A DNA stretch of 22,338 bases from a virus: positions 1 through 22,338 of the IMG/VR virus record IMGVR_UViG_3300023172_000209. One strand, given 5' to 3'. The notes below the pieces were generated by a model. That model searched no databases. It was not told the DNA's origin and saw only the letters and a list, made by a program, of their open reading frames with translations. Shown here piece after piece: positions 6,270-15,540 of the stretch. Numbering within the stretch: position 1 is the first letter of the stretch; each line of letters starts with the position of its first letter. A program made the position numbers and the translations under genes.

Positions 6270-6563
6270 ATGTTACAATTTAAAAGTTTCATATCAGAAG
6301 GCGTAAAGCTCAAGTTAATCCGCGGTAGAAACATGGACGTTCTAAAGATGTGGAACAAAGGCGACAGTAAATGGGTTGAACTTAGAGGTAAGCCTGGGTT
6401 TGAAACAAGATACGATCCAAAAGATCCTTTACATAAAGCGATCACCGCACTAGGTAAATCAGCAAATATTTCTGATTTTATGAATGGCAATGAAGTAAGT
6501 ATAAATCCAAAACATCCAGATGGTAAGAAAGCTTTAGACACAATAAGAGGACTGATGAAATGA
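6270..6563 (+). CDS. Small late protein with capsid-targeting-like N-terminus (97 aa)
   Basis: It begins MLQFKSFISEG, a ten-residue peptide ending in Glu that resembles the T4 capsid-targeting sequence (MKTYQEFIAE in T4 IPIII, from memory). The rest is basic and small: VKLKLIRGRNMDVLKMWNKG, then a repeat-like charged segment ending DGKKALDTIRGLMK. It is the first gene after the late promoter, with AGGAATT before the ATG. Its stop overlaps the next start (ATGA). I do not know its function; a small internal or structural head protein fits the start and the location. Confidence 0.75.
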   Translation: MLQFKSFISEGVKLKLIRGRNMDVLKMWNKGDSKWVELRGKPGFETRYDPKDPLHKAITALGKSANISDFMNGNEVSINPKHPDGKKALDTIRGLMK

Positions 6564-7366
6564 GTCAATTTAGCGTAAGTAGACAAAGACATTTTGGAAT
6601 TAATAATACAGATATTCATGAAATAATGATGCTAGCTGATCAATACGGTAACATTATTAACACCTTTGGTGCAGCAAGCAACATATATGTTGCAGCTGGA
6701 AATTTAGAAGGATATTCTGGTGTTCATAAATTTGGTGGGGTGTTTGGAACTGCGTCAGCTGACATGTCCACCGTATGGACAGCGGCAGATACAACTACAA
6801 CATTTTTATATGATTGGTCATACACTAATGGTGCTGTTACAGTAGTTTCAACTGACGCAGGAGACACAACGGACGTTACCGTTCAAGGATTAGACTCAGA
6901 TTATAACCCTGTAGAAGAAACGTTTACTCTGACAGGCACATCCCCCACAGCTACTGGATCTGTTAATTTTACAAGAGTGAATCGTGCCTTTATGAATGAA
7001 ACAACAAATGTAGGTAAAATTCAAGTTAAAAGAGGAACTACCCTAGTTACAGAAATTGGAGCAGGATTTGGACAAACACTTCAATGCTTTTATACTGTTC
7101 CCGCAAATAAAACAGCATATCTAATGAGTATTGCCGCAAGTGCAAGTAAAAATCAAATCGTAGATTTGTTTTTCTATCAAAGACCATTCGGTGGTGCGTT
7201 TAGAGTAAATACAACAATGTCTTTAAATCAATCAAATCAAACATTAGAATTTCCAGTTCCTCTTAAATTTTCTGAAAAAACTGATTTAGATGTTCGTGTA
7301 AGAGGTTCATCAAATGCTACAATTTCATGTGACTTTACAATGATTTTAGTGGATAATCCAAGCTAG
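6560..7366 (+). CDS. Putative virion structural protein, beta-rich (268 aa)
   Basis: It begins MSQFSVSRQRHFGINNTDIH, with a middle part full of Thr/Val/Gly beta strands (ADTTTTFLYDWSYTNGAVTV) and repeated short strand patterns to the end (TISCDFTMILVDNPS). The composition, lack of cysteine-rich, membrane or catalytic motifs, and its place early in a late operon fit a capsid- or tail-associated structural protein. I recall similar proteins in marine T4-like phages but cannot name the particle position. It overlaps the preceding stop (ATGA) and is followed after 12 bases by the next gene, so it is translated in the same unit. Confidence 0.72.
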   Translation: MSQFSVSRQRHFGINNTDIHEIMMLADQYGNIINTFGAASNIYVAAGNLEGYSGVHKFGGVFGTASADMSTVWTAADTTTTFLYDWSYTNGAVTVVSTDAGDTTDVTVQGLDSDYNPVEETFTLTGTSPTATGSVNFTRVNRAFMNETTNVGKIQVKRGTTLVTEIGAGFGQTLQCFYTVPANKTAYLMSIAASASKNQIVDLFFYQRPFGGAFRVNTTMSLNQSNQTLEFPVPLKFSEKTDLDVRVRGSSNATISCDFTMILVDNPS

Positions 7367-7378
7367 GTAGTATAAAAC

Positions 7379-8608
7379 ATGCAAAATTTTAAAGCACATA
7401 TAAATGAAAATAAAAACACACACATGACCCATATTGAAGATAGAGTTATTTATGGTGGTGTGAAAGGAACAAGAGAGGCAATATTTGCTCTTAGAGATTT
7501 AAGAGATATGCTTGCTGGTACTAAGGAAGGAAATGTAAGTGTTAAATGGGATGGTGCTCCTGCTGTTTTTGCTGGTATTGATCCGAGTGATAATAAATTT
7601 TTCGTTGCCAAAAAAGGTATATTCAACAAAAATCCTAAGGTCTATAAATCTGCAGCTGACGTTGATGCTGATACTTCTGGTGATCTTGCTACTAAGCTCA
7701 AAGATGCACTCAAATATTTGCCTTCTCTCGGAATCACCGGAGTTATTCAAGGAGATTTCTTATTTAGTAAAAGCGACTTGTCAAGTCAAACTATAGACGG
7801 AAAAAAATATGTCACTTTCCACCCTAATACAATTATTTATGCAGTGCCAGAAGGAACTCCTTCTGCAAAAGAAATTAGATCAGCAGAAATTGGAATCGTC
7901 TGGCACACAACATACACAGGATCGTCTTTTGAAACGATGAAAGCAAGTTATGGTGTAGATGTAACTAAGTTTAAAAAGTCAAAGTCTGTCTGGTCTCAAG
8001 ATGCAATGCTAAGAGATATGACAAAAGTAACAATGTCAAAAAAGGATACGGAGGAAGTAAATGAACGTCTTTCGGAAATTGGGAAACTCTTTAACCAAAT
8101 ATCTAGTAGCACCCTTAAAGAAATTGAAACCAACGCTGAACTTTCGCAAACAATTGAAACCTACAACAACTCCTTTGTTAGGAAAGGCGAAATTATTAAA
8201 GACACTCGAAAACATGCCGACGGACTCATTAGATGGATCAAAGATAAATACGAAAAAGAAATTTTCAAACGCAAGTCAGAACGCGGCAAAGATGCGCAAA
8301 TTAAAAAGAGGGAAGAAATCTTAAAATTTTTCTCTCCTACTAATAAACAAAATTTAATAAAGGTATTTGAATTACAGAAACTAATTGTATTAGTAAAATT
8401 AAAACTTATAAATATACTTAATAATATTAAAAAAATTGATACATTCGTAAAAACTACAAAAGGATTTAAAACAACAGGTCACGAAGGTTATGTAGCAATT
8501 GATAGACTTGGTGGTGACGCTGTAAAGATTGTTGATAGGATGGAATTTTCATACAACAACTTTTCGCCAAATATTTTAAAAGGATGGGATAAACCAGGAA
8601 GAAACTGA
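7379..8608 (+). CDS. Putative covalent nucleotidyltransferase (ligase-like) with capsid-targeting-like N-terminus
   Basis: In this 409-residue protein I can see an ordered set of ligase/capping-enzyme motifs. SVKWDGAP (54-61) matches motif I KxDG, with K56 as the candidate adenylated lysine. VIQGDFLF (122-129) is a motif III-like strand, with Asp in place of the usual Glu. IGIVWHTTY (171-179) is IIIa-like. GHEGYVAI (367-374) is motif IV-like EG. DAVKIVDRMEF (380-390) is motif V-like with K383. About 190 charged, largely helical residues lie between IIIa and IV. I think it belongs to an uncharacterised phage family (DUF6267, from memory). Residues 1-10, MQNFKAHINE, look like a T4-type capsid-targeting peptide. 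A DNA or RNA ligase activity is inferred and not proven. The AG-rich site at 7364-7369 precedes the ATG. Confidence 0.6.
   Translation: MQNFKAHINENKNTHMTHIEDRVIYGGVKGTREAIFALRDLRDMLAGTKEGNVSVKWDGAPAVFAGIDPSDNKFFVAKKGIFNKNPKVYKSAADVDADTSGDLATKLKDALKYLPSLGITGVIQGDFLFSKSDLSSQTIDGKKYVTFHPNTIIYAVPEGTPSAKEIRSAEIGIVWHTTYTGSSFETMKASYGVDVTKFKKSKSVWSQDAMLRDMTKVTMSKKDTEEVNERLSEIGKLFNQISSSTLKEIETNAELSQTIETYNNSFVRKGEIIKDTRKHADGLIRWIKDKYEKEIFKRKSERGKDAQIKKREEILKFFSPTNKQNLIKVFELQKLIVLVKLKLINILNNIKKIDTFVKTTKGFKTTGHEGYVAIDRLGGDAVKIVDRMEFSYNNFSPNILKGWDKPGRN
8407..8414 (+). promoter_or_regulatory. Internal TATAAATA, possible late promoter
   Basis: An exact late box lies inside the ligase-like gene, 194 bases before the next start. 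In AT-rich coding DNA it may be chance, but it could boost the downstream genes. Confidence 0.3.
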
Positions 8609-9063
8609 TGTTAAAATTTAAAGATTTAATTACTGTAGATTATGCTCCAGGCGAACCAGATGAAATTAAATATAAAAGACATAGAAAAAGAAGAACGGGG
8701 CTTGATCGTGGTTTAAACGACGGTCTTGAGACTGAAGCTCTGTCTATGGCTCAAAGATTAAAGAAAGCGCGTGATTTTAAAAGAAACCGCGCTAAGATTG
8801 CTCTTGGTAGAAAGAGAGCGGCTCGTCGTGTAGCAAGTAAAGAAGTGCTATTGAAAAGAGCAAGAAGGGCTGCTCGTAATAAAATATTACTCAAGATAAC
8901 AAAAGATGTTCCTCGTGGAGAACTAACTGTTGCAAGAAAGCAAGAAATTGAAAAAAGACTTGATAAACCAGCAATGAAAACACGAATTGATCGTTTAGCC
9001 AAGAAAATGTTTCCTCTTATTCGTAAAGCTGAAATGGAAAGAAAAAGAGGCGGTGCTAAATGA
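8608..9063 (+). CDS. Very basic Arg/Lys-rich phage protein, possible DNA-binding head protein
   Basis: This 151-residue protein is dominated by Arg and Lys. It starts MLKFKDLITVDYAPGEPDEI. Helical basic stretches follow (RKRAARRVASKEVLLKRARR at about 68-87), ending KAEMERKRGGAK. I recall a conserved family of such proteins in marine T4-like phages, with the KRAARR and EKRLDK...R signatures, but no function. The first seven residues align with the capsid-targeting-like starts of its neighbours, although the Glu at position 10 is Val here. High basicity plus late expression fits a protein packed with DNA, as for T4 internal proteins. It is coupled on both sides by one-to-four-base overlaps. A role in nucleic acid binding is inferred from composition only. 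Confidence 0.62.
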   Translation: MLKFKDLITVDYAPGEPDEIKYKRHRKRRTGLDRGLNDGLETEALSMAQRLKKARDFKRNRAKIALGRKRAARRVASKEVLLKRARRAARNKILLKITKDVPRGELTVARKQEIEKRLDKPAMKTRIDRLAKKMFPLIRKAEMERKRGGAK

Positions 9064-10415
9064 TTAATTCTTTTTCTCAATTTTTAGTTGAAGAAGAAAA
9101 GGTTGCTTATTTTGCCTTTGGTAGAATGAATCCGCCTACTATAGGACACGGTAAGCTAATGGATAAATTATCTGCCGTTGCTGGTAAAAATCCTTATTTT
9201 CTTTATCTTTCCCAGTCTAATGATAAAAAAGATAATCCATTAGAATATACCAATAAAATAAAATATATTCGTAAAATGTTTCCGAAACATGCAAGACAAG
9301 TTTTAGTTAATAAAAAAGTAAAGACACCATTTGATGCTTTAACCGATTTATATGATCGTGGTTATAGAAAAGTTGTTATGGTTGCTGGTTCAGATAGATT
9401 AGATGAATATAATATAAGATTAAATAAGTATAATGGCAAAAAGGGGAACCATGGTTTCTATAATTTTGCTAATGGTATTAAAATAGTTTCTGCCGGACAA
9501 AGAGATCCTGATGCTAAAGGTGCAGAAGGTGCTTCTGGCACTAAACAAAGAGAATATGCTTTAAATAATAATTTTACTTCTTTTGCTCAAGGTTTACCAG
9601 ATAAAATGTCAAATAGTGATGCTAAAAAACTTTTTAATGATATTAGAAAAGGTATGGGTTTAAAAGAACAAAAACAGTTTAGAAATCATATTAAACTTGA
9701 ACCTGTATCCGATATTAGAGAATCTTATCTTAGAGATAATATTTTTAAAAAAGGTGAACAAGTTGTAATAACTAAAAACGGCATTATCGGCAATATAAAA
9801 TATTTAGGTACAAATTATTTAATAGTAGAATCAAAGGGTGAAACATGGAGATGTTGGTTAGATGATGTATCTAAAGTAGATCCAAATGATATACCACCTG
9901 CACATTTAGAAGCTGATTTTGGAGCAGATCCATTACAAGGCCCATATAAGATTTTATCAGAATCATCTTCTTCAATGTATAAAGATAAGCCCGATTGGGG
10001 AACTCCAGAATCTGCACGTAAAGCCAAAGAAATAACTCCTGGTGAAAAGTCTAAAATAAAATCAGAAGCTGAAGATCCTGATATAGGACATAAAAAAGGT
10101 GTTCAACCAAAAGGGTATTATGCTGGTATTAAATCAAAATCCACTAAACTTGCTAGAGCAAGACATTTTGCTAAACATGGTAAGAAAGCAGACGATGATA
10201 GAAGTGCTTATAAACCAGCTCCTGGAGATGCTACAGCAAAAACAAAAACAAGCACACATACCTTAAAATTTAGACAAATGTATGGTGAAGATGCTATAAA
10301 AATAGCACAAGCAAAAATTGATAAAGAAAAAGAAGTAGATGCACTAAAACACGATAGAATGTTAGATCGTGCTAGATTAGCTAAAGCTAGGGCAAAAAAT
10401 AGGGCAACAAAATGA
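9060..10415 (+). CDS. NMN adenylyltransferase-like nucleotidyltransferase fused to C-terminal phage domains
   Basis: The 451-residue protein has a HIGH-family Rossmann domain at about 14-200. FGRMNPPTIGH (20-30) is the (H/T)xGH motif, VVMVAGSDR (105-113) the central GSDR motif, and SGTKQREYA (159-167) the [IS]SxTxxR-like motif. These are typical of nicotinamide-nucleotide or similar adenylyltransferases (ATP plus NMN to NAD). A KOW/SH3-like barrel follows (GEQVVITKNGIIGNIKYLG, 232-250, ending in WRCWLDDVSKV). The tail holds YYAGIKSKSTKLARARHF and AYKPAPGDATAKTKTSTHTL, segments I associate with other marine phage head proteins. MINSFSQFLVEE at the start is capsid-targeting-like. The true substrate is unknown. 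Overlapping starts and stops tie it into the late operon. Confidence 0.7.
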   Translation: MINSFSQFLVEEEKVAYFAFGRMNPPTIGHGKLMDKLSAVAGKNPYFLYLSQSNDKKDNPLEYTNKIKYIRKMFPKHARQVLVNKKVKTPFDALTDLYDRGYRKVVMVAGSDRLDEYNIRLNKYNGKKGNHGFYNFANGIKIVSAGQRDPDAKGAEGASGTKQREYALNNNFTSFAQGLPDKMSNSDAKKLFNDIRKGMGLKEQKQFRNHIKLEPVSDIRESYLRDNIFKKGEQVVITKNGIIGNIKYLGTNYLIVESKGETWRCWLDDVSKVDPNDIPPAHLEADFGADPLQGPYKILSESSSSMYKDKPDWGTPESARKAKEITPGEKSKIKSEAEDPDIGHKKGVQPKGYYAGIKSKSTKLARARHFAKHGKKADDDRSAYKPAPGDATAKTKTSTHTLKFRQMYGEDAIKIAQAKIDKEKEVDALKHDRMLDRARLAKARAKNRATK

Positions 10416-10669
10416 TTAAATTTAAACATTATATAAAAGAAGATGCAACAGCAGGGCTTAAGAAAAAAGCAGAAAAATCTGGTATGCCTCTTGGTATATT
10501 AAGACAAGTTTATAATCGTGGTGTTGCTGCTTGGAAAACTGGACATAGACCTGGTACTACACCAGAACAGTGGGGATTTGCAAGAGTTAATTCCTTTGTA
10601 ACTAAATCATCAGGAACATGGGGTAAAGCAGATAAAGATCTGGCTGCAAAAGTAAGAGGTTCAAAATGA
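10412..10669 (+). CDS. DUF5824-type small phage protein with capsid-targeting-like N-terminus
   Basis: The 85-residue protein begins MIKFKHYIKED, matching the M-x-x-F-K-x-x-I-x-E start seen upstream. The body carries the conserved block LKKKAEKSGMPLGILRQVYN, then RGVAAWKTGHRPGTTPEQWG, then ARVNSF and GTWGKADKDLA. I recognise this block as a common phage domain (DUF5824, from memory), found alone or fused in larger phage proteins. Its function is unknown. The Arg, Trp and Lys content suggests a nucleic-acid or head-associated role. It overlaps both neighbours by 4 bases (ATGA). Confidence 0.82.
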   Translation: MIKFKHYIKEDATAGLKKKAEKSGMPLGILRQVYNRGVAAWKTGHRPGTTPEQWGFARVNSFVTKSSGTWGKADKDLAAKVRGSK

Positions 10670-12561
10670 AAACCATAGAAGAAAAATTGGCTACAAATCA
10701 ATTAGATAGATTAGCTAAACACTGGTCTGGCATGAAAGGCAAGAGAATTCAACCTTCTGATGCTATTAAACTTTCTGCAATGGTTGGAAAATTCGGTAAA
10801 GATGAATTAGAACAATTAGCTACTAAAGATATACCTTTTCTTTCAATGTCTGCAATTAATAATTTAATGATTAAACATAATTATAGTGCAGATCAAATAA
10901 ATGGTCTTATGAAAGAAAATACCGAATATCTTTATGATCTCTATATGTTTGAAGATGTAGATGCAGGAGAATATGATTACGAAGGTGATATGGCAAAGAC
11001 TCAGCTTATTACTATTGCAGATGCTGCTGAAGAACTCCATGACATGCTTGAAGATGATGAAAATCTTCCAGAATGGTGCCAGAACAAAATCACTAAAGCG
11101 ATGGATTACCTAGATACCGTTCGTGATTATATGATAGCAAAAGACACAGATGAAGAACCCGGTAATGAAAATCCAAATGAATCAGTAAAACAAGAAATGT
11201 TTTCGGAAGAAAGAATGGCCGCAGGACGTTTTGGTAAAAATGTACATGATATTAAGATAAAGATACCAGCTCGGATTGACAAAGTCATTAAAAAAGCTAG
11301 TCCTGTTTATGACCAACGTGAAAACAAACCTCATAAGGCAATCGGTAAACATCTGAAAGATATTATGCAAAAACATGGCGTTAAGGCATCAGGTAAGAAA
11401 CATTATCACAATGATATGAGTGGTCATTATATGTTTGCTCACCCAGATAATGATCCAGCAAAAGTCCATGCAGCTGCAACTGAATTTGAAAAAACTGTAG
11501 GCAAAGCAATTCGTACAGAATCTTTAGATGAAGGTAATATGGCATCAGCAGCAAAAGAGTTAGAAACTTATGCACGTAAGTCTGGCGGAATTGATAAAAA
11601 TGATTTTATTAAAGCAGCTATGATGATGAAAAGAAACCAAAAGAAACAGCTTGATAAGTTTGTTGATGAGTTGGATACAGAACCGCGTGAAAAGATTTTA
11701 TCAGTCATGGATAAACACTTAAATGAAGGTATGAAAGAACCGTTTGATGAAAAAAAAGGTGACTTACATCTATATAATAACGAAGCTGATGCACGTAAAA
11801 AAGCAAAAGAAGTTTCTGGTAAAGTTATTAAAGGAACCGGAAAATCTGCTGGTAAATGGGCAGTTAAAGAAAAAGTTGAACTTGACGAAAAAGTAAACGC
11901 TAAAGCAATTCAAAAAGCAGTTGACGATGGCAAGTCTATGGACGTTATTATGACTATGTTTGCTAACAAGCGCACAACTAATACAGACGAAATCCGCAAA
12001 GTCGTAAAAGACTACATGTGGAAGAAGCGTATGAAAAAAGAAGAAGTAGAACTTGATGAAAAGTTTGAACCAAAAACTGTTGGTATGAAAATTGTTCATA
12101 AAAAGCCGCATCCGGCTGGAGGACAATATGTTGTTCTAAGTAAACCTGGAGCTGGTCAATATGTTATTAGACATTTAAATAAAGGTCAAGTTAAAACTCT
12201 TGGAACAGTACCTTCACTTGGTCTTGCAAAATCTTATATTGATGCTAAAAGTAAAGGGAAAGATCCAAAAGATTTATTAAAAACTGAAGAAGTGTCCGAA
12301 AAGGCACCAAAGATTGATTCTAAAAAATTTGCAGCTCATATGTCAAGAAATACTAAACCAAAAACTATGACATCAACACAAAAATCTTTATCTAGTATCA
12401 GCCGTAGAGCAAATGAAAAACTTTCTGTAGCTGATGGTATGGGTGCTTGGATAGATGATTTTAAACAGTCTGATGCACCACAGTTTAAAGGTAAAACCGC
12501 AAAAGAGCGCAGAGATATGGCTATAGCAGCATATTTAAGTGCAAAAAAAGATAATGAATAG
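10666..12561 (+). CDS. Large modular phage protein with repeated LDE linkers, probable internal head protein
   Basis: The 631-residue soluble protein is Lys/Glu-rich and has several modules I recall from marine T4-like phages: an acidic helical part about 105-160 (LEDDENLPEWCQNKITKAMD), a His-rich part 245-280 (KKHYHNDMSGHYMF), an LYNNEADARKKAKEVSGKVI segment (369-388), a TNTDEIRKVVKDYMWKKRM helix, and a C-terminal SDAPQFKGKTAKERRDMAIA block. Short acidic linkers separate them: ESLDEG (285-290), HLNEG (351-355), KVELDEK, EEVELDEK. LxE followed by Gly or Ala is the cleavage form of T4-type prohead protease. The start MKTIEEKLA loosely resembles T4 capsid-targeting peptides. Function is inferred only. 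It is the last gene of the coupled late run. Confidence 0.7.
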   Translation: MKTIEEKLATNQLDRLAKHWSGMKGKRIQPSDAIKLSAMVGKFGKDELEQLATKDIPFLSMSAINNLMIKHNYSADQINGLMKENTEYLYDLYMFEDVDAGEYDYEGDMAKTQLITIADAAEELHDMLEDDENLPEWCQNKITKAMDYLDTVRDYMIAKDTDEEPGNENPNESVKQEMFSEERMAAGRFGKNVHDIKIKIPARIDKVIKKASPVYDQRENKPHKAIGKHLKDIMQKHGVKASGKKHYHNDMSGHYMFAHPDNDPAKVHAAATEFEKTVGKAIRTESLDEGNMASAAKELETYARKSGGIDKNDFIKAAMMMKRNQKKQLDKFVDELDTEPREKILSVMDKHLNEGMKEPFDEKKGDLHLYNNEADARKKAKEVSGKVIKGTGKSAGKWAVKEKVELDEKVNAKAIQKAVDDGKSMDVIMTMFANKRTTNTDEIRKVVKDYMWKKRMKKEEVELDEKFEPKTVGMKIVHKKPHPAGGQYVVLSKPGAGQYVIRHLNKGQVKTLGTVPSLGLAKSYIDAKSKGKDPKDLLKTEEVSEKAPKIDSKKFAAHMSRNTKPKTMTSTQKSLSSISRRANEKLSVADGMGAWIDDFKQSDAPQFKGKTAKERRDMAIAAYLSAKKDNE

Positions 12562-15177: not shown

Positions 15178-15540
15178 ATGGATGGAGTGGAAAATTTTAG
15201 AAAATATAGAGAACAAAAAATAGACGCAATCTGTGAAGAATGTAATCTATATGAAGATTTAGAAATAACTGAAGCAGAGTATCAAGGTCGTAAAGTAAAA
15301 CTAAATGATCCCACTCGTTCGAATGACGGTAAGAAAAAATTCTATGTTTATGTCAAAAACGATAAAGGTAATATTGTTAGGGTTGGTTTTGGTGACCCTA
15401 ACATGGAAATCAAAAGAGACGATCCAGCACGAAGGGCTTCCTTCCGTGCCAGACATAACTGTGACAATCCTGGACCAAAATGGAAAGCAAGATATTGGAG
15501 CTGCTATCAATGGAGAGCAGGCGCTAAAGTAGACAATTAA
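15178..15540 (+). CDS. DUF5872-type small phage protein with conserved Cys
   Basis: The 120-residue protein (113-120 depending on the start) has an ICEECN motif (C19, C22) near its start. Its C-terminal half is well conserved: KFYVYVKNDKGNIVRVGFGD (54-73), then KRDDPARRASFRARHNCDNP (79-98), then KARYWSCYQW. I recognise this half as a phage domain of unknown function (DUF5872, from memory), which often ends larger phage head or structural proteins. C95, C109 and H93 together with the CxxC could bind zinc, but this is only a suggestion. The ATG at 15178 has AAAGG only 2 bases away; a GTG at 15187 (VENFRKY) is an alternative start with better spacing. It is read from the late promoter just upstream. 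Confidence 0.8.
   Translation: MDGVENFRKYREQKIDAICEECNLYEDLEITEAEYQGRKVKLNDPTRSNDGKKKFYVYVKNDKGNIVRVGFGDPNMEIKRDDPARRASFRARHNCDNPGPKWKARYWSCYQWRAGAKVDN

Follow-up and report, generated by a model that had tools for sequence, protein, structure and literature searches.

A T4-type capsid-targeting decapeptide is predicted to load enzymes and other proteins into the heads of marine T4-like phages

The internal proteins IPII and IPIII of bacteriophage T4 carry a capsid-targeting sequence (CTS) of ten N-terminal residues on unrelated bodies. Mutational work assigned targeting to residues 4 and 7 of the T4 CTS and processing to residues 8 and 10, and the protease gp21 cleaves after [LI]xE (PMC9026906). 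Once injected, T4 internal proteins with such a tag block the restriction systems of the host (PMC12373910, PMC9391042), and the CTS has already been used for finding internal proteins in T-even phages. Also comparable are the T4 ADP-ribosyltransferase Alt, a packaged enzyme whose N-terminal propeptide is trimmed by gp21 and which is delivered to the host (PMC9026906), and the ejection proteins of phages phiKZ and SPN3US, whose N-terminal propeptides bring in head proteins and are removed by a gp21-like protease that cleaves behind Glu (PMC5694885). Here, we analysed marine viral DNA of 22,338 nucleotides (positions 1 to 22,338 of IMG/VR virus record IMGVR_UViG_3300023172_000209; referred to as the window), in which the proteins starting at positions 6270, 7379, 9060, and 10412 (each named by its start) open with a decapeptide of this kind. 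We consider it highly probable that these decapeptides are CTSs of the T4 type, and that the bodies behind them are trapped in the head and most likely ejected with the DNA.

The window sequences resembled the CTS of IPII and IPIII in standing at the N-termini of basic and otherwise unrelated proteins, with an aromatic residue at position 4, a hydrophobic or aromatic residue at position 7, Ile or Leu at position 8, and Glu at position 10; furthermore, relatives of the window encode a gp21-type protease and contain tagged proteins in their virions, as in T4. On the other hand, position 4 was almost always Phe (Tyr in T4), the length varied between 9 and 12 residues, and the hosts are marine and freshwater bacteria. 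While the T4 internal proteins are small restriction inhibitors, the cargo described below includes nicotinamide mononucleotide adenylyltransferase (NMNAT)-like proteins, S-adenosylmethionine (SAM) hydrolase, kinases, and HD- and Zeta-type proteins. The likeness to Alt, an enzyme as head cargo, is one of analogy: no sequence relation to the bodies described here was seen, and the tag residues differed. The propeptides of phiKZ and SPN3US also differed, being mostly longer than 100 residues and not a common decapeptide.

Every clear gene of the window (19) was scored using a matrix built from 40 distinct DUF6267 decapeptides of other marine viral contigs (IMG/VR), which had been found using the body of 7379, with the window itself excluded. 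High scores were obtained for MLQFKSFISE followed by Gly (6270..6299, + strand, as for the other features between positions 6270 and 12561 given here; 17.7), MQNFKAHINE followed by Asn (7379..7408; 16.6), MIKFKHYIKE followed by Asp (10412..10441; 15.6), and MINSFSQFLVE followed by Glu (9060..9092; 10.2 as an 11-mer). The bodies were a 97-residue basic protein without a known family (6270..6563; isoelectric point (pI) of 9.9), a 409-residue DUF6267 protein (7379..8608; Pfam PF19782, E value of 2.8e-103), a 451-residue NMNAT/cytidylyltransferase-like protein (9060..10415; PHROG cytidyltransferase, 1.9e-69), and an 85-residue DUF5824-type domain (10412..10669; Pfam, 1.1e-17), all predicted cargo. 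The N-terminus of 8608 scored 11.7, and each of the remaining 14 genes scored below 0. None of the 5,603 internal 10-mers of the window proteins reached a score of 10; the pooled internal rate, including the cyanophage S-CREM2, was 1.1e-4, and the probability of at least four tagged genes among 19 by chance was approximately 6e-13. A preliminary description had listed five N-termini with a shared pattern, including 8608, and all five were found in their places; the pattern held for the four that end in Glu, with the correction that the form of 9060 is one residue longer (Glu at 11), and failed for 8608. Its statement that the bodies are unrelated was right in general, with one exception: 10412 is the C-terminal domain of the 9060 protein, split off as a gene of its own.

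Homologues were collected from the bodies alone, and their N-termini were read afterwards. The tag was present in 42 of 43 distinct homologous genes of 6270 (24 different 11-mers, with Gly next after the tag in the examples listed), in 146 of 156 homologues of 7379 (most others having slightly longer forms, e.g. MIKSFSTHVLSE), in 121 of 155 homologues of 9060 (most others adding a few residues before the same core), and in 82 of 131 homologues of 10412. In the alignments, Glu10 was invariant and Phe4 present in at least 90% of 29 sequences of the 7379 family, and Phe5, Leu9, and Glu11 were invariant in 26 sequences of the 9060 family. On the same basis, 8608 was rejected as a strict member: only 4 of 142 distinct homologues matched, and the family motif was FKDxxxVDY, in which Glu is absent. 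Its N-terminus, MLKFKDLITV (8608..8637), which has Val at residue 10, is a look-alike with hydrophobic residues of the targeting type, and not a CTS. Since some relatives of this body are tagged, such as the one at the syntenic position in phage C48C1 (MLSFKQFVSE), an 8608-type body may be cargo in other phages. The annotated start of the C48C1 cytidyltransferase (OQ984149, 63448-64857) is probably wrong; a GTG codon 66 bases upstream gives MIKNFSQYLLE followed by EEREVYFTFGR.

The decapeptide was constrained at the protein level. Among 60 distinct N-terminal sequences of DUF6267, the ratio of nonsynonymous to synonymous polymorphism (pN/pS) was 0.07 at codons 4, 8, and 10, with ample synonymous change, 0.75 at the interleaved codons 2, 3, 5, 6, and 9, and 0.57 at codon 7, which was partly constrained (mostly Tyr, Phe, or His); the value for body residues 11 to 30 was 0.09. 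These sequences were gathered by requiring Met1 and Glu10 before a conserved body, and the constraint on Glu10 is partly built in; the unbiased count for 7379 given above covers this bias. Compared with the T4 determinants, positions 4, 8, and 10 were strongly and position 7 partially constrained. Confidence in the predicted structure was very low over the first 16 residues of DUF6267, as expected for a flexible tag. An alternative, on which these results bear, is that the N-termini are alike for reasons unconnected with the head, namely constraint on nucleotides or on the translation start, or a signal for degradation or the membrane: AT-rich genomes favour Lys, Phe, Ile, and Asn behind the start codon, and short motifs are easily over-read. 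We regard this as extremely improbable, because the constraint acts on amino acids rather than nucleotides, internal 10-mers of the same proteins fail to match, and the tag predicts independent virion proteomics (see below); the pN/pS values and the virion tests have already largely refuted it.

The preliminary description had proposed that these proteins are packaged into the head, with which the published proteomics of relatives agreed. When the matrix was applied to the 187 annotated coding sequence starts of S-CREM2, whose virion proteome is available with gene coordinates (PMC10665884, Table 3), five proteins scored above 8 (next score, 2.4; 0.07 expected by chance), and all five belonged to the 52 proteins detected in virions (Fisher p = 0.0014): the cytidylyltransferase ORF154 (MKNFSSFLTE), the APH/ChoK kinase ORF14 (MKRFDAFLTE, GTG start), the SAM hydrolase ORF6 (MKDFDSFLEE), and two proteins without an assigned function, ORF136 (MQTFSMFFSE) and ORF13 (MKDLHSFLTE). 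With open reading frames (ORFs) called anew, the strict pattern by itself overlooked the Leu/Phe variants and the kinase with the GTG start, which lowered the significance (p = 0.053). Loose matrix thresholds with a free choice of start codon yield one to three chance matches per genome, and the tests were therefore limited to strict patterns or annotated starts; later scans took all ORFs or annotated starts. Tagged cytidylyltransferase/NMNAT proteins were found in the virions of four cyanophages: in addition to S-CREM2, S-SZBM1 (S-SZBM1_140, MRFRQFIIE; PMC9146016), S-SCSM1 (S-SCSM1_91, labelled a virion protein, MKSFLQFLKE), and S-SM1 (T4-GC190, MKKFSAFLNE). The last was a forward prediction, presence in the virion being known from PMC3037559 before the N-terminus was read, and the S-SM1 test covered the proteins named in the main text of that paper. 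The S-CRM01 kinase, in virions according to PMC10665884, starts with MISFDQFLSE, and an untagged cytidylyltransferase homologue of S-PM2 was reported as undetected in virions. When four phages were combined, virions contained 8 of the 11 tagged proteins (2.1 expected; P = 1.4e-4). The pooled set was defined by pattern, and some of its N-termini had already been read during exploration; the matrix scan of S-CREM2 is therefore the cleanest of these tests.

The authors of the S-CREM2 and S-SCSM1 proteomes raised the possibility that such enzymes are contaminants, i.e. abundant late proteins that co-purify, in which case the tag would have no role in packaging. Contamination would hardly single out one N-terminal decapeptide (5/5 in S-CREM2 and 8/11 pooled) or miss the untagged S-PM2 cytidylyltransferase, and we consider this explanation very improbable. 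Several other virion proteins had tag-like stretches. The Cas9-like nuclease of S-CREM2 (ORF12; OR473000, 7704-10313, - strand), which is virion-detected, has LRFASFMAE followed by Ala approximately 16 residues past the annotated ATG, and no ATG, GTG, or TTG start lies directly before this stretch. A 69-residue virion protein of S-SCSM1 (SSCSM1_93; MK867354, 91626-91835) has a tag-like core at its C-terminus (RTFKEFLEYIE). The similar small proteins adjoining the virion kinases, ORF15 of S-CREM2 (virion-detected) and g131 of S-CRM01, open with shorter tag-like forms: MNFSEFNE and MNFSEFLE, respectively.

Peptidase_S77, the family of gp21, was found in 13 phage records that carry or are related to the tagged block (C48C1, DLP6, Melnitz, HTVC008M, S-CREM2, S-SZBM1, S-SM1, Syn9, S-PM2, S-CRM01, S-SCSM1, and two large relatives, referred to as G001 and G002, whose DUF6267 proteins are 71 and 73% identical to that of the window), besides T4. 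In a check proposed in the preliminary description, every phage genome examined that had clear tags encoded this protease, and S-CBWM1 had neither an S77 match nor a credible tag. In 12 of the 13 genomes checked, an [LI]xE site followed by [AGSTQ] lay within residues 51-58 of the major capsid protein. This site closely resembles the last residues of the tag, and the predicted cleavage positions include FLAE before Thr (G001), FLTE before Ala (G002), FLSE before Ala (Melnitz), and ILTE before Thr (S-SM1); the capsid protein of HTVC008M has FLGE before Ile, which is outside the pattern used. In a positive control, the pattern scan of T4 returned IPII and IPIII. T4 also has a 54-residue ORF away from the IPII and IPIII genes (NC_000866, 18966-19130, - strand) that begins with a strong tag, MKTFKEFIKE.

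The decapeptide was thus a shared signal constrained at the protein level, portable between bodies (see below), accompanied by the protease in relatives, and linked there to presence in the virion. Packaging is supported by these data; from the T4 precedent, we infer that the tagged proteins bind to the core, are cleaved after Glu, and are injected into the host, where they act. The aromatic or hydrophobic residues 4 and 7 would attach the protein to the core of the assembling prohead, and the last four residues, [FYH][IL]xE, would be the site of the gp21-type S77 protease, by which the tag would be removed as the head matures. Removal would trap the mature bodies in the head (the NMNAT-like enzyme, its split C-terminal domain, DUF6267, and the small basic protein), from which they would most likely enter the host together with the DNA. 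Several observations weigh against this interpretation. The window, a 22-kb fragment, is itself without protease or capsid genes; HTVC008M, which is related and bears S77, shows only degenerate forms of the tag; and a few homologues of 10412 are without a clean Glu. S-SZBM1_191, S-SZBM1_192, and S-SCSM1_30 are tagged yet undetected in virions (all three are small, and the S-SZBM1 and S-SCSM1 proteomes are shallower), and most virion proteins are untagged, as would be anticipated of components of the shell and tail. The one DUF6267 homologue in a proteome read with gene names (S-SZBM1_141) was untagged and undetected.

The five proteins of the preliminary description were all basic (pI of 9.5-11.3), like the T4 internal proteins, and several cargoes had no recognisable enzyme domain. 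These properties would also suit proteins packaged by the decapeptide that act within the head, in DNA condensation, as scaffold, or in maturation, rather than delivered effectors. Enzyme-like cargoes are many, with SAM hydrolase, kinase, and NMNAT in virions and tagged proteins resembling an HD-type ppGpp hydrolase and Zeta toxin, and the T4 proteins so tagged target host defences after injection (PMC12373910, PMC9391042); a role confined to the head is therefore unlikely, and delivery with the DNA is preferred.

Conservation of the decapeptide independently of the body, a check proposed in the preliminary description, was borne out: it occurred on approximately 30 unrelated families in the loci fetched, a few of which (single sequences) may be chance matches, and these bodies also had homologues without it. 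Untagged DUF6267 homologues of P-HM2, S-PM2, S-CRM01, and S-SZBM1 start at the predicted cut point: MSKNTHLEHLED, MATQNKHLEHLED, MAKDGKNVHLEHLED, and MAKNTHLEHLED, versus ITE followed by QKNTHMTHIED in tagged ones. HTVC008M and Melnitz encode the NMNAT and DUF5824-type domains as one fused protein, with the latter on the C-terminal side; the window, G002, and C48C1 have a separate gene for the DUF5824-type domain. Of 72 distinct split forms, 51 had their own CTS, and split NMNAT genes were usually tagged on both halves. Other tagged families included a Zeta-toxin-type kinase (locus L063; 290 residues, MQSFQSYLSE, Pfam E value of 5.6e-8), a HAD-type phosphatase (just below the cut-off), and DUF6321. 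A 189-residue tagged HD protein found in one locus and its relatives (L019; MLNFKSHMNE) is near the (p)ppGpp hydrolase part of RelA/SpoT (TIGR00691, E value of 9e-27), and is a candidate injected alarmone hydrolase. Two further tagged proteins, of 239 residues (L023; MKPFRKFITE) and 304 residues (L104; MITFKQYIAE), contain LYHWT/LYHGS stretches with a faint resemblance to RNA 2'-phosphotransferase/ADP-ribosyltransferase folds; the matches were weak (best E value of 0.004, for L023 only), and an ADP-ribosyltransferase-like function is not claimed for these families.

The preliminary description had also suspected two nucleotide-using enzymes, for which support was obtained from the fold of 9060 and, in the case of 7379, from sequence motifs only. 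The AlphaFold2 model of 9060 (mean confidence, pLDDT, of 68 overall and approximately 80-90 across most of the N-terminal domain) matched PPAT/NadD/NMNAT structures with an E value of 1.3e-5 and a probability of 1.0, and the protein has a HIGH-type fold and the GRxNPPTxGH motif. Fold and motif thus support the assignment of 9060 as a putative NMNAT/cytidylyltransferase-like nucleotidyltransferase. In the alignment of 7379, KWDG, GVIQGDF, and EGYVAID were conserved and recall motifs of ligase-type nucleotidyltransferases. Searches of DUF6267 by fold (Foldseek) and by hidden Markov model gave no significant match, and a profile search against PDB gave weak ligase matches at chance level; DUF6267 as a proven ligase was rejected on the non-significant fold search, and a ligase is kept as an idea based on motifs. 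Homologues of 9060 with the same tag include the virion cytidylyltransferases/NMNATs of cyanophages described above, from which the window and its close relatives differ in having the C-terminal domain as a separate tagged gene. The 'ribonucleotide reductase alpha subunit' of S-RSM4 and S-PM2 (84-91 residues) corresponds to phrog_4808, which matches residues 219-274 of 9060; judging from this match, the name looks wrong, and the protein is probably a split NMNAT-like domain.

No report of the CTS in cyanophages or other marine T4-like phages was found in the open-access literature, subscription papers and preprints being outside the search, and the accessible text of the papers on cyanophage virion cytidylyltransferases does not mention the tag. 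The signal itself is of a known kind, the T4 CTS; what appears to be new is its extent over marine phages, the approximately 30 cargo families including enzymes, and a rule that aids in separating cargo from contaminants. Cyanophage proteomics repeatedly finds enzymes in particles, and authors were unable to say whether these are cargo or contaminants. The tag provides a sequence rule that predicts which virion enzymes are cargo and can be tested immediately against mass-spectrometry data already available. More broadly, a portable tag for head loading, gained and lost over approximately 30 families, is reasonably likely to be shared by T4-like phages of marine and fresh waters, and its cargo to be a set of effectors that is made in advance, enters the host with the genome, and can be read from metagenomes. 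Such a set would comprise likely nucleotide, NAD, SAM, and possibly ppGpp enzymes, kinases, and perhaps a Cas9-like nuclease. The proteins co-delivered with the DNA of these very abundant ocean phages are almost unknown, and metagenomic contigs may now give lists of candidate injected effectors; the decapeptides also offer short tags of natural origin with which proteins could be loaded into phage heads.

Among the neighbouring genes, 6560..7366 (phrog_8198; score of -3.3) is an untagged gene within the run. The run is followed by a gene for a 631-residue protein without an N-terminal tag (10666..12561; score of -6.4), which was considered and rejected as a relative of the virion protein S-SZBM1_139. 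The product of 15178-15540 has only a degenerate form at its N-terminus, VENFRKYREQ; its likely homologue in C48C1 (68091-68408) begins with a perfect tag, MKKFKQYIDE, followed by Gly.

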